This document shows, one piece after another, positions 11,082 through 37,352 of a DNA stretch of 37,352 nt (within the stretch, counting starts at the first letter, position 1; every line of letters starts with the position of its first letter). The position numbers were made by a program, and so were the translations under genes. Source of the stretch: a virus; IMG/VR virus record IMGVR_UViG_3300042507_002077, positions 1 through 37,352 of that record; one strand, given 5' to 3'. The notes under the pieces are model-generated. The model was not told where the DNA came from and made no database searches. It saw nothing but the letters and a program-made list of their open reading frames with translations.

Positions 11082-11414
11082 ATGGCTAATTGGAACATCA
11101 TCATCAATCGTGAGGCGACCTATCAGGTGACGCTTACCATGTCGGGCGTTGCGGACATTGCGCTTGCTACGGAGTGGAGGCTCACGCTTGCCATGCCGAA
11201 CGCCGCGCCGTTCCTGACGGCGACCACGGCGAACGGCCTGTTCCTTCCGGGTACTTCCTCGGCGCAGAAGATCCTCGTGATTCCTGCCGCCACGACCACG
11301 ACGATGCCCCTCGGCAACGGGCGGTATGACTTCGACATCCTGTGGGCGGGCGGGGTGGTGCGGCGGTACATCGCAAACGGCTACCTTCAGGTGAATCCGA
11401 AGGCGGGTGCGTGA
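11082..11414 (+). CDS. Small tail protein upstream of fibre, probable fibre adaptor
   Basis: A 110-aa beta-rich protein with N-I-I-I-N-R-E-A-T-Y-Q-V-T-L and G-R-Y-D-F-D-I-L-W-A-G-G-V-V-R-R-Y-I near the end, a pattern I associate with small baseplate/fibre-attachment proteins. Its stop overlaps the start of the long fibre by one base (TGATG), so the two are likely co-translated. I infer an adaptor between tail tip and fibre; no biochemical motif is visible. Confidence 0.5.
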   Translation: MANWNIIINREATYQVTLTMSGVADIALATEWRLTLAMPNAAPFLTATTANGLFLPGTSSAQKILVIPAATTTTMPLGNGRYDFDILWAGGVVRRYIANGYLQVNPKAGA

Positions 11415-13453
11415 TGCCTGCTTCCGTCACCATCACGGAACTCGTAACGACCCTGACGGTCAACGGCACGGATGTCACGATCACGGTCAATCAGGGACAG
11501 CCGGGTGTCGGCGTTCCTGCGGGCGGCACGACCGGGCAGTCGCTTGTCAAGGCGAGCAACGCCAACTACGACACCACATGGTCGAACGCCGGAAGCGGCA
11601 CGGTCACGAGCATCACCCCCGCAGCCGACAACGGCAGCGGCACGGCGATCACGGGCGCGGGCACGATCAGCGTGCTTGGCACGGCGAACGAAGTCACCAC
11701 ATCGGTCACGGGCACGGCGATCACGGTCGGACTGCCCAACGAAGTGACGGTCATCGACCTGAACACGGAGCGGATCGACTTCGACACGACCCCGACCACG
11801 CCGACCGATGCCATCGGGCGCGAGTATTGGGACGCGACCTACAACACGCTTACGCTCGGCCTGAGCGCGAATGTCAACCTGAAGGAAGGGCAGGCGCTCT
11901 ACAAGCGCGGTCGAAACATCAGCAACACCACGGCGATCCCGAAGGGCGCGGTGGTTTATGTCGCCGGATCGCACGCCGGAACGGAGTTGATGATCGGCCT
12001 TGCGGACGCGGACTTTGAGGCGACGAGCGCGGACACCATTGGCGTTGCTGCGGAATCCATCGCGGCCAACAGCACGGGATTCGTTCAGGTGTTCGGCTAC
12101 CTGACCGGGATCGCGACAAACGGGTATTCAGGAGCGGAAGGTACGGCGCTTTACCTTTCGTCCACGCCGGGAGAGATGCAGTCCACCCCTCCCACGCAGC
12201 CCAAGCACGGCGTTCGGGTGGCCTTTCTCGTCAAGAAGGCAGGCGCAGGCGCGGGCAGCATCTTCGTCAACATTCAGAACTATCAGGAGTTGGATGAACT
12301 TTCCGATGTCCTGATTTCCGGGCCGCTGACGGGCGACCTTCTGCGATGGAACGGCACGCTTGGGGTGTGGCAGAACGCCACGCTCGGCACGATCCTTGAC
12401 GGCGACAAGGGCGACATCACGGTTTCCGGCACGGGCGCGACTTGGACGATTGACAACGGGGTTGTCACCTACGCCAAGATTCAGAATGTCAGCACGACCG
12501 ACCGCATCCTCGGGCGGCAGTCGGCAGGCGCGGGAAGCGTTGAGGAGATCACTTGCACGGCGGCGGGGCGCGCCCTGATTGACGATGTGGACGCGGCGGC
12601 GCAGCGCACGACCCTCGGTCTTGGTGCGGTCGCAACACAGGGGGACGGCGACAAAGGCGACATCACCGTTTCGGGCACGGGCGGCACTTGGACGATTGAC
12701 AATCAGGCCGTCACCTACGCCAAGATTCAGAATGTGACGGCAACGGATCGCCTGCTCGGGCGAAGCACGGCAGGCGCGGGCACGGTGGAGGAGATCACTT
12801 GTACGGCGGCGGGGCGCACCTTGCTTGACGATGTGGACGCGGCGGCGCAGCGCACCACGCTCGGCTTGGGGTCGCTTGCAACGCAGGGCGATGGGGGCAA
12901 GGGCAACATCACCGTATCCGGATCGGGAAGCACTTGGACGATTGACAGCGGCGTTGTGCTGCCGTCGAACTTGTCCACGGGCGCTCCGTCTTGGACGGGT
13001 GGCGGAGATGTCACGACCGTTGGCGACATCATCATCGGCGGCAACGACATCAAGGACGCGGGAGCAAACACGGCGATCAGCCTGTCCGGTGCCGATGTGT
13101 CGATGCAGGGCAACACCGCGACGAAGGGCGTTACGGAAGGCGTTGTTGCGCTTGGCACGGTCACGACTTCCGCGACCATCTCGCTGACGAACGGCACGAT
13201 CATCACGGCGACCCTGACGGCATCGACGGCCTGCACCTTCACGATGCCGACCGCCACGGCGGGCAAGTCATTTACGCTCCTGCTTAGGCAGGCGGCGACC
13301 ACGGGCAACGGCACGGCAACCTTTACCGGGGTGAAATGGCCTAGCACGGGCGCGCCGACGATCACGGCCACGGCGGGACGCATGGACATCCTCGCGTTTG
13401 TCGCGGACGGCACGAATTGGTACGGCACCACGGTTCAGGGGTACACGCCGTAA
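11414..13453 (+). CDS. Tail fibre with tandem repeats
   Basis: A 679-aa protein rich in Gly, Thr and Ala. The N-terminal part includes Q-P-G-V-G-V-P-A-G-G-T-T-G-Q, a collagen-like fibre entry. Residues about 330-515 hold two and a partial third copy of an 82-aa repeat containing G-D-K-G-D-I-T-V-S-G-T-G and T-A-G-A-G-T-V-E-E-I-T-C-T-A-A-G-R. A compact beta domain ends the protein. Repeats of this sort form trimeric shafts in phage fibres. The true start is ATG 11414 in the TGATG overlap. It is probably the shaft of the receptor-binding apparatus. Confidence 0.75.
   Translation: MPASVTITELVTTLTVNGTDVTITVNQGQPGVGVPAGGTTGQSLVKASNANYDTTWSNAGSGTVTSITPAADNGSGTAITGAGTISVLGTANEVTTSVTGTAITVGLPNEVTVIDLNTERIDFDTTPTTPTDAIGREYWDATYNTLTLGLSANVNLKEGQALYKRGRNISNTTAIPKGAVVYVAGSHAGTELMIGLADADFEATSADTIGVAAESIAANSTGFVQVFGYLTGIATNGYSGAEGTALYLSSTPGEMQSTPPTQPKHGVRVAFLVKKAGAGAGSIFVNIQNYQELDELSDVLISGPLTGDLLRWNGTLGVWQNATLGTILDGDKGDITVSGTGATWTIDNGVVTYAKIQNVSTTDRILGRQSAGAGSVEEITCTAAGRALIDDVDAAAQRTTLGLGAVATQGDGDKGDITVSGTGGTWTIDNQAVTYAKIQNVTATDRLLGRSTAGAGTVEEITCTAAGRTLLDDVDAAAQRTTLGLGSLATQGDGGKGNITVSGSGSTWTIDSGVVLPSNLSTGAPSWTGGGDVTTVGDIIIGGNDIKDAGANTAISLSGADVSMQGNTATKGVTEGVVALGTVTTSATISLTNGTIITATLTASTACTFTMPTATAGKSFTLLLRQAATTGNGTATFTGVKWPSTGAPTITATAGRMDILAFVADGTNWYGTTVQGYTP
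12401..12960 (+). repeat. 246-bp tandem repeat in fibre gene
   Basis: Copies begin at 12401 and 12647, and a truncated third at 12893, each 246 bases (82 codons) apart. They differ at many third positions, so they are not a recent perfect duplication, but protein sequence is strongly kept. Confidence 0.8.
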
Positions 13454-19940: not shown

Positions 19941-20258
19941 GCACACGGAAGCCACTCCGTATGCGAAAATCGACGCGCATCGTCGTTTTGCGGATACGGG
20001 ATGGGCGTGTGATGGATTGTCGGGCGTTGGGTGCAAAAGGTGACACTTCCTCACAAGTATGGTGGATTTGATCCACGCCGGGGTATGCTTGCGTTGCGAG
20101 GATGTGGGTCTAGCGCGTTTGATCGCCGTGCGAATCCCACTCGGAACGGCGCAGAAGGCCGCGAGGTACGACCGCCGTTGATATCACCGATGGGGTAATG
20201 CAACCTGTCGCCGGGGCGGGACGGAAGCAGAAAGTGACCGTTGCCGCCCACTTGACCC
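19902..20258. other. Non-coding region between late and early blocks
   Basis: No gene with acceptable start and codon pattern is visible on either strand. It holds a direct repeat TCCGTATGCG (19926-19935 and 19956-19965), a degenerate inverted copy near 19990, and a short palindrome GTGGAT-ttg-ATCCAC (20062-20076) that could be an operator. It may contain an attachment or regulatory site, but there is no integrase to support that. Confidence 0.5.
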
Positions 20259-20286
20259 TTGCGCGTTCCTGATTCGGTGGTAGCAT
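20259..20286 (+). promoter_or_regulatory. Promoter of the replication gene
   Basis: TTGCGC (20259-20264), a 16-nt spacer, and TAGCAT (20281-20286), upstream of a 120-nt leader. Same -35 type and spacing as other promoters here but without the CCCCG/CGGGG palindrome. An overlapping TTGACC at 20252 is too far from the -10. Confidence 0.5.
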
Positions 20287-20413: not shown

Positions 20414-21370
20414 ATGAACGCACCGTGGTTTCCCCTGTACGCACCGGAATTTCTCGCTAGCACTATGTCGATGTCCCCGGAGGTGGTGGGTGCCTACATC
20501 CGCCTGCTTTGCTACGCATGGATGAACGGCGGCATTCCCGATGATCTGCCGACCGTGCAACGAATCTCGGGAGGCCTATCCGAATCCGGGTGGGCCGAAA
20601 TCCGCGCCCGTTTGCAGCCTCACGGTGACCGTAGCGGTGACCGTCACGGTGACCGTGTGCAGATGTTGGTGCATCCGCGCATGGAGCGCGAACGGGTACG
20701 AACCGAGTCGATCAGGGAGGCGCGGCGAGTGGCCGCTAATAACACGAATAGGAAGCGGAGGCACGGTGACCGTGACGGTGACCGTAGCGGTGACCGTAGC
20801 GGTGACCGTGACGGTGACCGTAGCGGTCACCGTCTGTATCCACAGTCACAGAATACAAATACCCCCCACCTGTCGGTGGGGGGTTCTAGGGGGGAGGGGG
20901 TGGGAAATCCATCGGAAGGGAACCGACCCAAGCCCGCCGCTTCGACGGCAGGGCGGCTAGAAGGCGCGGAGGCGCGTCCGAGCCGTCAGGACGGGCCGAC
21001 ACCTACCCCCACCCCTCCGAACGCTCCTGAAGGCATCGTGCCGCGTTCCGCGATTTCGCGGATGCGCTCCCCGACCGCCGACGAGATGGCGCGCATAACT
21101 CGTCGGCCCGGTAACGCACGAGTCACCGACGAGACAATCGCGGCGAAGAAGTCCGTGATTGAGAAGATCCTGACCGCGAAGGGGGTGTCACCCGAACTCC
21201 GTGTCGCGGTTTGGGAGGCGGGCATTCGGGAGTGGTCGCACACCGGAACCGATCCCTATGAGTGGTGCAAGGGAACGGTGCTTGCCGATTGGGTGGGAGT
21301 GAGAAATCCGAACGCAATTATTTCGCATCGGCTCGGAATTGCTCTTGACCCCGTTGGAGCGGGGCGCTAG
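20414..21370 (+). CDS. DUF1376 replication protein carrying iteron-like repeats
   Basis: A 318-aa protein. The N-terminus (residues 1-95) has the DUF1376 pattern P-W-F-P-L-Y-A-P-E-F-L-A-S-T, then G-A-Y-I-R-L-L-C-Y-A-W and I-P-D-D. Two low-complexity blocks of [HSD]-G-D-R repeats (near residues 70-82 and 117-140) are encoded by 12-bp DNA repeats. A disordered Pro/Gly region and a conserved C-terminal helical domain (about 240-318) follow. DUF1376 proteins are often found with phage replication genes and are thought to help start replication. Repeats inside an initiator gene recall lambda O. No helicase, primase or polymerase gene is recognisable nearby, so host enzymes would be recruited. Start chosen at ATG 20414 (GGAG upstream). 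Confidence 0.7.
   Translation: MNAPWFPLYAPEFLASTMSMSPEVVGAYIRLLCYAWMNGGIPDDLPTVQRISGGLSESGWAEIRARLQPHGDRSGDRHGDRVQMLVHPRMERERVRTESIREARRVAANNTNRKRRHGDRDGDRSGDRSGDRDGDRSGHRLYPQSQNTNTPHLSVGGSRGEGVGNPSEGNRPKPAASTAGRLEGAEARPSRQDGPTPTPTPPNAPEGIVPRSAISRMRSPTADEMARITRRPGNARVTDETIAAKKSVIEKILTAKGVSPELRVAVWEAGIREWSHTGTDPYEWCKGTVLADWVGVRNPNAIISHRLGIALDPVGAGR
20623..20656 (+). repeat. Iteron-like repeat block 1 (3 copies)
   Basis: CGGTGACCGT at 20623, 20635 and 20647, exactly 12 bp apart. The core is nearly palindromic. It encodes G-D-R repeats in the DUF1376 protein. Confidence 0.75.
20764..20833 (+). repeat. Iteron-like repeat block 2 (6 copies)
   Basis: CGGTGACCGT at 20764, 20776, 20788, 20800 and 20812. 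At 20824 there is CGGTCACCGT, the reverse complement of ACGGTGACCG, so the last copy is inverted. Period 12 bp. With block 1 this is a candidate replication origin. Confidence 0.75.
20861..20884 (+). repeat. GC-rich hairpin beside the iterons
   Basis: ACCCCCCACC (20861-20870) and GGTGGGGGGT (20875-20884) form a perfect 10-bp stem with TGTC loop, 28 bp after the last iteron. A G-rich stretch follows to about 20904. It may be part of an origin or simply a stable mRNA structure. Confidence 0.55.
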
Positions 21371-24065: not shown

Positions 24066-24461
24066 ATGCTTACCTACCTGCCCATCCTGCTTGCCGTTGC
24101 CGTCGATGCGCCCGCCAACTTCAACGCACGCCCGATCCTTGATGCGATCCGCGAGAAGGAGACAGGCGGCGAAGCCGACCCCGCCAACGCCATCGGTGAC
24201 GGCGGCAGGGCCATCGGCCCGTATCAGATCCACCGCGTGTATTGGCAAGATGCCATTGAGCATGAGCCGAGCATCGGCGGTCGCTACGAGGACTGCCGGG
24301 ACGCGGCGTATGCCGAGCGCGTCATCCTCGCGTATTGGGATCGGTACGCGCCGGATTGGCGGCACGAGACACTTGCGCGGGTTCACAACGGCGGGCCGAA
24401 GGGACACCGCAAGACGGCGACCGTTTCGTATTGGATTGATGTCCGGGCGAACCTCCGCTAG
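24066..24461 (+). CDS. Exported lysozyme-like endolysin
   Basis: A 131-aa protein. The first about 17 residues (M-L-T-Y-L-P-I-L-L-A-V-A-V-D-A-P-A) look like a secretion or signal-anchor sequence. The body has the lysozyme/transglycosylase pattern R-E-K-E32-T-G-G, D-P-x-N-A-I-G-D-G-G-R-A-I-G-P-Y-Q-I and H-N-G-G-P-K-G, with E32 the likely catalytic acid. It would cut peptidoglycan after export through the host Sec system, which fits a phage with only a small holin candidate. It sits far from the lysis-like genes at 15.6-16.5 kb and directly before a terminator. Confidence 0.75.
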   Translation: MLTYLPILLAVAVDAPANFNARPILDAIREKETGGEADPANAIGDGGRAIGPYQIHRVYWQDAIEHEPSIGGRYEDCRDAAYAERVILAYWDRYAPDWRHETLARVHNGGPKGHRKTATVSYWIDVRANLR

Positions 24462-35936: not shown

Positions 35937-37352
35937 TGCGCCGCGCAAGGCGACTCAACCGCCCCGGCCTGCCCGGTTCCTCGGAATCGGCGGTGCTGCT
36001 GTCAAACGACTTGCAGGCGGAAGCAACGCTGAACCTTGATTTCCGTTCGGGCGTGCTTGACCCGCGCATCGACTTTCAGCGCACGACCACGGGCACCTAC
36101 TACCGTGGGCCGTTCAATCAGAACTTGGTCACGCGAAGCCAAGACCTTGATTTGTGGTCAACGCTTGATGCTGTTGTGACGGCAAATGCGGCGACAGCCC
36201 CGGATGGGACGATGACGGCGGAACGAATCGTTCCAAATGCTGTCTCCGCACCGCACGGGGTGTATCGCTCAACATCCGTAGTTGGATTGGCGGCATACAC
36301 GCAAAGCGTGTATGTGAAGGCGGATGGCCTGACTTGGTTCTACATGACGGAGGCAAATTCCCTCACGGCAAGTGCGTGGTTCGATGTTGCCAACGGCATT
36401 GTGGGAACGGTGAGCGGAACGGGGAGCCCGTCGGCAAGCATCGAAAATGTCGGCAACGGTTGGTTTCGTTGCGTGATGCGATTCACGACCCTATCCGCGC
36501 AGACTTTGGCAAACATCCAAGTTCGCCCAACGTCAGGTAACGGCGTGTTTTCGTTTGCCGGGGATGGGATCAACGGCTTGCTTGCATGGGGCGCACAAGC
36601 CACCGAAGGCTCCTCGCTGACCCCGTACCTCCCCACGACCACGGCGGCGATCACGCAGGGGCAGATCGCTGCGGCGGGAAGTAATGTGCCGAGGTTTGAG
36701 AACGACCCGATCACCGGGGAGGCCCGTGGTCTGCTGATCGAAGGCGGGGCGACGAACCTGCAACTTTACAGCGCCGACATTACCAACGGTTCAGCACGAA
36801 CCAACATTACGTTTGGGGCCACCAAGATCACCGCCCCTGATGGAACGACATCAGGTGAGTTGGTGTCTGCAACCACGACTGGTGCAACATCGCTTCGCGG
36901 CAGCACTCATACAATTGCCGGAACCAACGCAACGGGCTCGATTTTCATCAAGCAAGGATCGTTGGCTGTCGTGCAATTTTGGATCATTGACAGCACGACA
37001 AGCACGACGATTCTGTCAGGCACATACACATTTGCGACCAAAGCCACCACGGTGGTGTCGGGTACAGGGACGATGACGGCCACGGATGTCGGCAATGGAT
37101 GGGTGCGTATTGCATTGTCCGTGACGACCTTCGTGTCGGGAAACAACCTGCGATTCTTCTACGGCTTCAACGGCGGTACGGCTACTGCGGGCGATTCGTT
37201 CTATCTGTGGGGGGTACAAATTGAGCAGCAGTCCTTCGCCTCCTCCTACATCCCGACCACGACCGCCACGGTTGCGCGTGGAGCGGACAACGCCTTGATG
37301 ACGGGCACTAACTTCTCGTCTTGGTACAACCAAGCGGAAGGGACGATCTATG
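35936..37352 (+). CDS. Phage fibre/adhesin-like protein, 5' part (continues at 1-660)
   Basis: The N-terminal 390 residues plus the overlap of a 609-aa protein that finishes at base 660 on the circle. The N-terminus is basic (M-R-R-A-R-R-L-N-R-P), then L-D-F-R-S-G-V-L-D-P-R-I-D-F-Q-R. Two beta units follow, N-L-V-T-R-S-Q-D-L-D-L-W to W-G-A-Q, and N-L-Q-L-Y-S to W-G-V-Q. It is a paralogue of the 13453-15306 fibre in unit order and ending. Receptor or surface binding is expected; the head-module position suggests a head fibre. Confidence 0.7.
   Translation, partial: MRRARRLNRPGLPGSSESAVLLSNDLQAEATLNLDFRSGVLDPRIDFQRTTTGTYYRGPFNQNLVTRSQDLDLWSTLDAVVTANAATAPDGTMTAERIVPNAVSAPHGVYRSTSVVGLAAYTQSVYVKADGLTWFYMTEANSLTASAWFDVANGIVGTVSGTGSPSASIENVGNGWFRCVMRFTTLSAQTLANIQVRPTSGNGVFSFAGDGINGLLAWGAQATEGSSLTPYLPTTTAAITQGQIAAAGSNVPRFENDPITGEARGLLIEGGATNLQLYSADITNGSARTNITFGATKITAPDGTTSGELVSATTTGATSLRGSTHTIAGTNATGSIFIKQGSLAVVQFWIIDSTTSTTILSGTYTFATKATTVVSGTGTMTATDVGNGWVRIALSVTTFVSGNNLRFFYGFNGGTATAGDSFYLWGVQIEQQSFASSYIPTTTATVARGADNALMTGTNFSSWYNQAEGTIY
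37106..37352. repeat. Terminal overlap, right copy
   Basis: Matches 1-247 except G at 37225 in place of A at 120. Joins the fibre frame to the left end. Confidence 0.9.

Follow-up and report, generated by a model that had tools for sequence, protein, structure and literature searches.

The gene at positions 20414 to 21370 (plus strand) of the window, i.e., the whole 37,352-nt stretch of viral DNA analyzed here, encodes a DUF1376 protein of 318 residues and contains nine near-palindromic sites that are probably the iterons of a replication origin situated within the gene for the initiator itself. An in-gene origin resembling that of phage lambda had been proposed from the DNA letters in the original prediction, and comparative tests, namely the reading frame changes, the joint exchange of domain and sites, and the context of YdaU presented below, support it. 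We consider it likely that the protein, a proposed replication initiator, works like lambda O, although it is not a lambda O. The virus record comprises 37,352 bases, of which the first and last 247 (1 to 247 and 37106 to 37352) form a direct terminal repeat with 246 of 247 positions identical; the record probably corresponds to a complete genome, terminally redundant or circular. The assignment of the repeat-bearing gene to DUF1376 held up, as residues 4 to 69 match PF07120 with 29.4 bits (E = 1.1e-6), slightly under the cut-off of 30.1 bits, and the protein also matches phrog_3992 (“primosomal protein,” E = 2.4e-7). DUF1376 was the sole family found in a Pfam scan (E ≤ 1), in which the lambda O N-terminal family was absent from the window protein, and relatives exceed the PF07120 cut-off (L001, 40.7 bits; L012, 43.5 bits; L015, 36.3 bits). 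No close relatives of the window protein were found in the named phage collection, and L001, 62% identical overall, was the only viral-contig relative recovered with it.

The array comprises nine near-palindromic 11-mers, RCGGT-S-ACCGT, at positions 20622 to 20833, in clusters of three and six with a 12-bp period. Cluster 1 (20622 to 20656, plus strand) consists of three RCGGTGACCGT units spaced at 12 bp and codes for the wing-strand loop (residues 71 to 81), while cluster 2 (20763 to 20833, plus strand) consists of five RCGGTGACCGT units and one GCGGTCACCGT at the same spacing and codes for the beginning of a linker predicted to be disordered (residues 118 to 140). Eight exact copies of CGGTGACCGT start at 20623, 20635, 20647, 20764, 20776, 20788, 20800, and 20812, and the ninth copy, CGGTCACCGT at 20824, has its central base flipped. 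Sites with at most one mismatch on both strands number 20 versus 5.1 expected, a count reached by none of 100 shuffles, and TRF detects both arrays with period 12; the array is not a chance occurrence. Exact matches, shuffles, and TRF thus agree with the predicted three repeats at 20623 to 20656 and six at 20764 to 20833. The exact 12-bp phasing that had been claimed applies inside each cluster only, since the start distance between clusters (20647 to 20764) is 117 bp, which is no multiple of 12. The last copy, described as inverted, does differ from the others, but the unit is an odd-length palindrome except at its center (and variable first base), so that the inversion comes down to a one-base change from GAC to CAC, replacing Asp with His. 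Translation yields eight GDR and one GHR, in line with the [HSD]-G-D-R tetrapeptides foreseen from the repeats. The extent originally given to the feature was too narrow, as the domain in front of the sites and the AT-rich tract and C/G hairpin behind them also belong to it.

The window was compared with L001 per 60 nt. The DNA is 0.93 to 1.0 identical at 20041 to 20280 and 0.92 to 1.0 at 20881 to 21300, versus mostly 0.45 to 0.62 over 20461 to 20880 (0.80 in the start-codon bin). The DUF1376 domain is thus replaced in L001 in one block with the array and the AT-rich tract, and the array found there instead is made of AATGGCAACCC and TTAGGGTGCCC units. The genes of L015 and L040 likewise have a common C-terminus with a different domain and array. 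C-termini sharing 93% and 83% identity with the L015 one occur in L042 and L044, respectively, where they are preceded by an HTH_36/O-like domain (with “replication initiation” family matches in L042, the one scanned) and where the gene contains seven dyads of the GGTGCA-N5-TGCACC type. The C-terminus of YdaU, the DUF1376 protein of the Escherichia coli Rac prophage, is found in enterobacteria behind other domains, namely a phrog_2509 “replication initiation protein” domain with TGTAACGC/GCGTTACA sites in L022 and L030 (L031 alike by sequence) and a phrog_3729 domain with GTCAC sites in L033. Judged from these alignments, the N-terminal domain and the sites change together, as one unit.

The C-terminal helical domain (21077 to 21334, plus strand; residues 222 to 307) is near-identical in L001, whose N-terminal half is replaced. 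In the window protein this domain matched no family, and O-like matches were obtained only for the C-termini of YdaU-type and L011 proteins: residues 112 to 259 of YdaU match phrog_678 (“replication initiation O-like”) with an E value of 2.5e-24, and L011 does so with 1.5e-22. The YdaU C-terminus also aligns with phage proteins annotated as replication protein O, e.g., that of Gifsy-1, and a DnaC-like helicase loader follows in ydaU-type loci, with phrog_50 matched by 10 of 48 scanned downstream ORFs, including those of L019 and L120. The proposed association of DUF1376 with replication is supported by YdaU, which joins this domain to an O-like C-terminus and has a DnaC-like neighbor. No helicase, loader, or polymerase was found among the 54 window ORFs (PHROG, E ≤ 1e-8), and genes for RusA, Erf, a Gam-like protein, and an exonuclease are present. 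The downstream ORFs scanned in the related phage loci L009, L011, and L015 included terminase genes and no loader.

A winged-helix domain, proposed to bind the iterons, was predicted at 20441 to 20761 (plus strand; residues 10 to 116) in an AlphaFold2 model built from 16 sequences. The pLDDT is 63 overall, with blocks of 81 to 94 over residues 11 to 110 except for the loop at 71 to 80 (51). The elements of the model follow the winged-helix order, and cluster 1 corresponds to the loop between two wing strands. Solved structures were matched only weakly (Foldseek E > 0.6; best Z of 5.8, to winged-helix chains), among them winged helices from ORC2, the N-terminal domain of DnaD, and a Rep-DNA complex, so that the fold is suggestive only. 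A profile search of solved structures returned weak matches to DnaT/primosomal protein I chains only (E = 0.06 to 0.85). Directly behind cluster 2 lies a locally AT-rich tract (20834 to 20862, plus strand; 18 of 29 positions A/T), a candidate DNA unwinding element where the AT-richest 40-nt window of the gene is found (0.55 versus a gene mean of 0.36, a modest value in a GC-rich gene). The AT-richest 40 nt fall 0 to 45 residues behind the array peak in 19 of 30 array genes versus 4.8 expected, and in 9 of the 17 array genes that were not picked by repeats versus 2.5 expected. An inverted repeat, ACCCCCCACC-TGTC-GGTGGGGGGT (20861 to 20884), also seen in L001, lies where the exchanged block ends on its downstream side. 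A C5-7...G5-7 pair behind the AT-rich tract was observed in the window group and in ydaU (window, L012, L015, L017, L001, L009, L040, L045, and L018), read as different peptides in different members, and may fold into a hairpin, in DNA or in RNA, where the cassette ends. As a family-wide element, the C5..G5 hairpin was rejected, since it occurs in 3 of 40 unselected DUF1376 genes versus 1 of 109 controls, and is thus a subgroup feature.

Bound by the DUF1376 protein, the array could also be an operator through which the early operon is autoregulated, and not an origin: the winged helix is as similar to regulators of the MarR, ArsR, or Fur type as to initiators, and near-palindromic sites fit a regulator. 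We hold this to be improbable, as the sites lie approximately 210 to 420 bp into the gene with none upstream (GGTNACC occurs nine times in the window, 9/9 inside the array), and the C-terminus fused to the domain is one common to replication initiators, being O-like in the YdaU-type and L011 proteins, with a DnaC-like loader following in YdaU-type loci. Against the origin reading, the GC skew along the window, suggested as a check in the original prediction, has no turning point near 20.7 kb. Also against it count the lack of helicase, loader, and polymerase matches among the 54 window ORFs (PHROG, E ≤ 1e-8), the window C-terminal domain matching no family, the weak structure matches, and the DUF1376 genes in which the array test described next is negative.

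A search for PF07120 across 398 genomes from a single phylum gave 28 positive genomes. The test set consisted of 40 DUF1376 genes not picked by repeats, i.e., genes from the PF07120 search and YdaU relatives, including five Pfam-detected genes that our own profile had missed; redundant copies of a gene, genes shorter than 450 nt, and one gene with a masked stretch were left out. Clusters of 9-mers (at most one mismatch, direct or inverted, within 150 bp) were scored against 40 synonymous-codon shuffles of each gene. All 40 shuffles were exceeded in 20 of the 40 DUF1376 genes versus 12 of 109 other ORFs from the same loci (Fisher p = 1.3e-6), so that by this test the other half of the DUF1376 genes lack an array. 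The 40 include 12 enterobacterial YdaU relatives (8 with an array) that are not independent of one another, and excluding them leaves 12 of 28. The cluster peak was located 0 to 70 residues behind the DUF1376 domain in 25 of the 40 genes versus 9.9 expected, and arrays were present in 19 of 31 genes encoding at least 245 residues versus 1 of 9 below that length. A first comparison (12/35 versus 17/109), which counted direct repeats only and whose controls included at least three DUF1376 genes, is superseded. The units vary by gene (GTTSAAC in enterobacteria, CCAACGG in L055, TGTAACG in L074, ATGCGAACGCA in L048 and L051, CCAATGG in L066, and GGGACA in L071 and L075), several of them repeating at 11 bp. 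Two clusters, one inside the domain and one just behind it, were found in the window, L012, L015, L017, L040, L045, L120, and enterobacterial members.

We asked whether the DNA or the encoded peptide is kept. When viral contigs were scanned strictly for three units of the CGGTSACCG type, 10 stretches were recovered, 6 of which lie in DUF1376 genes; L010, L014, and L016 are outside recognizable DUF1376 genes, and L013 is probably a DUF1376 fragment cut by the contig end, given its likeness to L012. A looser scan for three GGTSACC returned 61 stretches, 9 of which have a spanning ORF scoring E < 1e-3 with our own DUF1376 profile (L098, 0.02), a profile built partly from genes scored with it (L008, L009, L011, L012, L015, and L017); the rest are mostly repetitive or unknown proteins. 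In independent Pfam scans, L008, L009, L012, and L015 were above the cut-off, L011 was below it, and L079 and L104 had no match; L017 is 91% identical to L015. Further GGTSACC arrays were observed in other phage genes, namely in L121 (3929 to 4771), in a gene matching DnaD-like helicase loader and replication initiation families, in L083 (873 to 1841), with a weak match to “DNA binding protein,” and in L095 (3 to 707) and L014 (1900 to 2481), where neither gene matches any family. The GGTSACC sites are read as GDR in the window, L009, L012, L015, and L017, as VTEP in L008, and as RSPx/GSPx in L011, L079, L104, and L120 (L098 probable), and the six sites in one gene of L120 use all three reading frames. 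In the frame where GGTGACC yields the stop codon TGA, all copies carry the flipped center GGTCACC. Units of 10 to 11 bp place copies of one gene in different frames in L055, L029, L024, L025, and L028, as well as in L033, which belongs to another initiator family. Because identical sites occur in different reading frames, the comparison argues decisively that what is conserved is the DNA, with the peptide as a by-product. Where relatives keeping the tetrapeptides and losing the DNA repeats had been envisaged as counterevidence, we found the reverse, as the repeats are kept and the peptide varies with the frame.

These frame changes, together with the 10- to 11-bp periods and the two separated clusters, speak against the idea that the repeats are kept for a GDR linker peptide or arose as neutral tandem duplications. 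In its favor, linkers of low complexity are common, unrelated repetitive proteins (e.g., GDLGGDLG stretches) were also matched when three GGTSACC were searched for, and L015 and L017 differ in copy number by 12-bp units. However, different units occupy a like place in the genes, the arrays exceed synonymous shuffles, and the codons are biased: GGT and CGT each make up 10% of the Gly and Arg codons, respectively, in 12 other ORFs, giving the array codons, for the peptide encoded, a probability of 3e-20 if codons are independent, an assumption that tandem duplication would break. The peptide or neutral explanation, to which we give very little credence, appears already contradicted by the sequences. 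Partition and copy control can likewise rely on iteron arrays, but that this one is a partition, incompatibility, or recombination site is also very improbable, given no ParA/ParB family among the 54 window ORFs (PHROG, E ≤ 1e-8) and arrays within initiator genes of several families.

The in-gene origin that we favor has counterparts in known systems. In lambda, the initiator binds iterons in the middle of gene O that are followed by an AT-rich region, and iteron number varies between phages, lengthening the protein (PMC7466680). Similarly, the window gene has its sites in and behind the proposed DNA-binding domain, with an AT-rich tract following them and a C-terminal domain last. It differs from lambda in that its sites form two clusters, one inside the domain and one between the domains, in its N-terminal DUF1376 domain, and in units of 11 to 12 bp, shorter than the 18-bp lambda iterons; in addition, no loader gene was found among the 54 window ORFs (E ≤ 1e-8), whereas one is present beside ydaU-type genes and that of L120. 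The oriL of SPP1 has direct repeats and an AT-rich element within initiator gene 38, whose product gp38 binds the repeats (PMC6316719). The window also has repeats and an AT-rich element in its proposed initiator gene, but SPP1 also possesses another origin as well as a loader and a helicase of its own, whereas the window has one array and none of these were found. The E. coli Rac prophage has an active origin, oriJ (PMC3945230), and no statement of its position relative to ydaU was found in the literature examined. Rac YdaU resembles the window protein in its DUF1376 domain, has TGTTCAA/TTGAACA sites directly behind that domain and the DnaC-like loader YdaV adjoining, and differs from it in its sites and C-terminus. 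Initiators of the phrog_2509, phrog_3729, and HTH_36 types have C-terminal regions as in DUF1376 relatives and in-gene site arrays of their own, but their N-terminal domains and sites are different.

Taken as an origin, the array would be bound at the GGT-S-ACC sites of both clusters by the DUF1376 winged helix, with about one protein unit per 11- to 12-bp turn. The resulting nucleoprotein complex would strain and open the AT-rich tract (20834 to 20862), after which the C-terminal domain would recruit the host DnaB helicase, directly or through a loader that is phage-coded next door in YdaU-type relatives and presumably the host's in the window phage. Binding, melting, helicase loading, and origin firing are all inferred steps. 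Because the sites sit between the two domains of the initiator, recombination would carry them along with the N-terminal domain and the melting tract in a single cassette, and initiator and origin would thereby stay matched. Extending this, we lean toward the view that the origins of phages move as one cassette lying within a gene, which consists of a winged-helix domain from any of at least four initiator families (DUF1376, HTH_36/O-like, phrog_2509-type, and phrog_3729-type), a site array of its own in the domain and linker, and a melting tract, and which is exchanged in front of a conserved C-terminus. If so, DUF1376 would be a large unrecognized initiator family with the origin sequence legible in each gene, and in the window group even the wing loop would be encoded by binding-site DNA. 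This would give PF07120, of unknown function in Pfam, a role and locate the origins of the phages and prophages carrying it, E. coli Rac included. Protein and cognate sites would be coinherited by their overlap, which would explain origin-specificity swaps without mismatch in mosaic phages, and the prediction is exact as to site, domain, and boundary.

Some members have been named primosomal protein or replication protein O by annotators, so the link to replication had been guessed before. In a literature search covering few subscription journals, no treatment of the function of DUF1376 was found among papers mentioning the domain, no paper was found that brings DUF1376 and iterons together, and no description was found of the in-gene arrays or of their joint exchange with the domain.

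Outside the array, the window has no GGTNACC, a BstEII-type palindrome, although trinucleotide counts predict 10.1 copies (mean of 9.7 and minimum of 3 in 100 under an order-2 Markov model), and the array retains nine copies despite this absence. The avoidance was rejected as a sign of binding and is not used as support, since GGTNACC is also absent from the 24.6-kb sibling G007; as the iterons of G007 differ, restriction avoidance or lineage bias is the better reading of this depletion. As a class, odd palindromes are also low in the window (477 versus 729), and the absence of GGTNACC from the window and G007 suggests host restriction pressure. Rfam and tRNA scans of the window returned nothing. 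A 246-bp tandem repeat of 2.2 copies (83% matches) was seen at 12398 to 12947, inside the ORF at 11342 to 13453. Lastly, the ORF at 24066 to 24461 matches Pfam Destabilase (PF05497, E = 2e-8), a lysozyme-type family, and possibly encodes a lysis enzyme.
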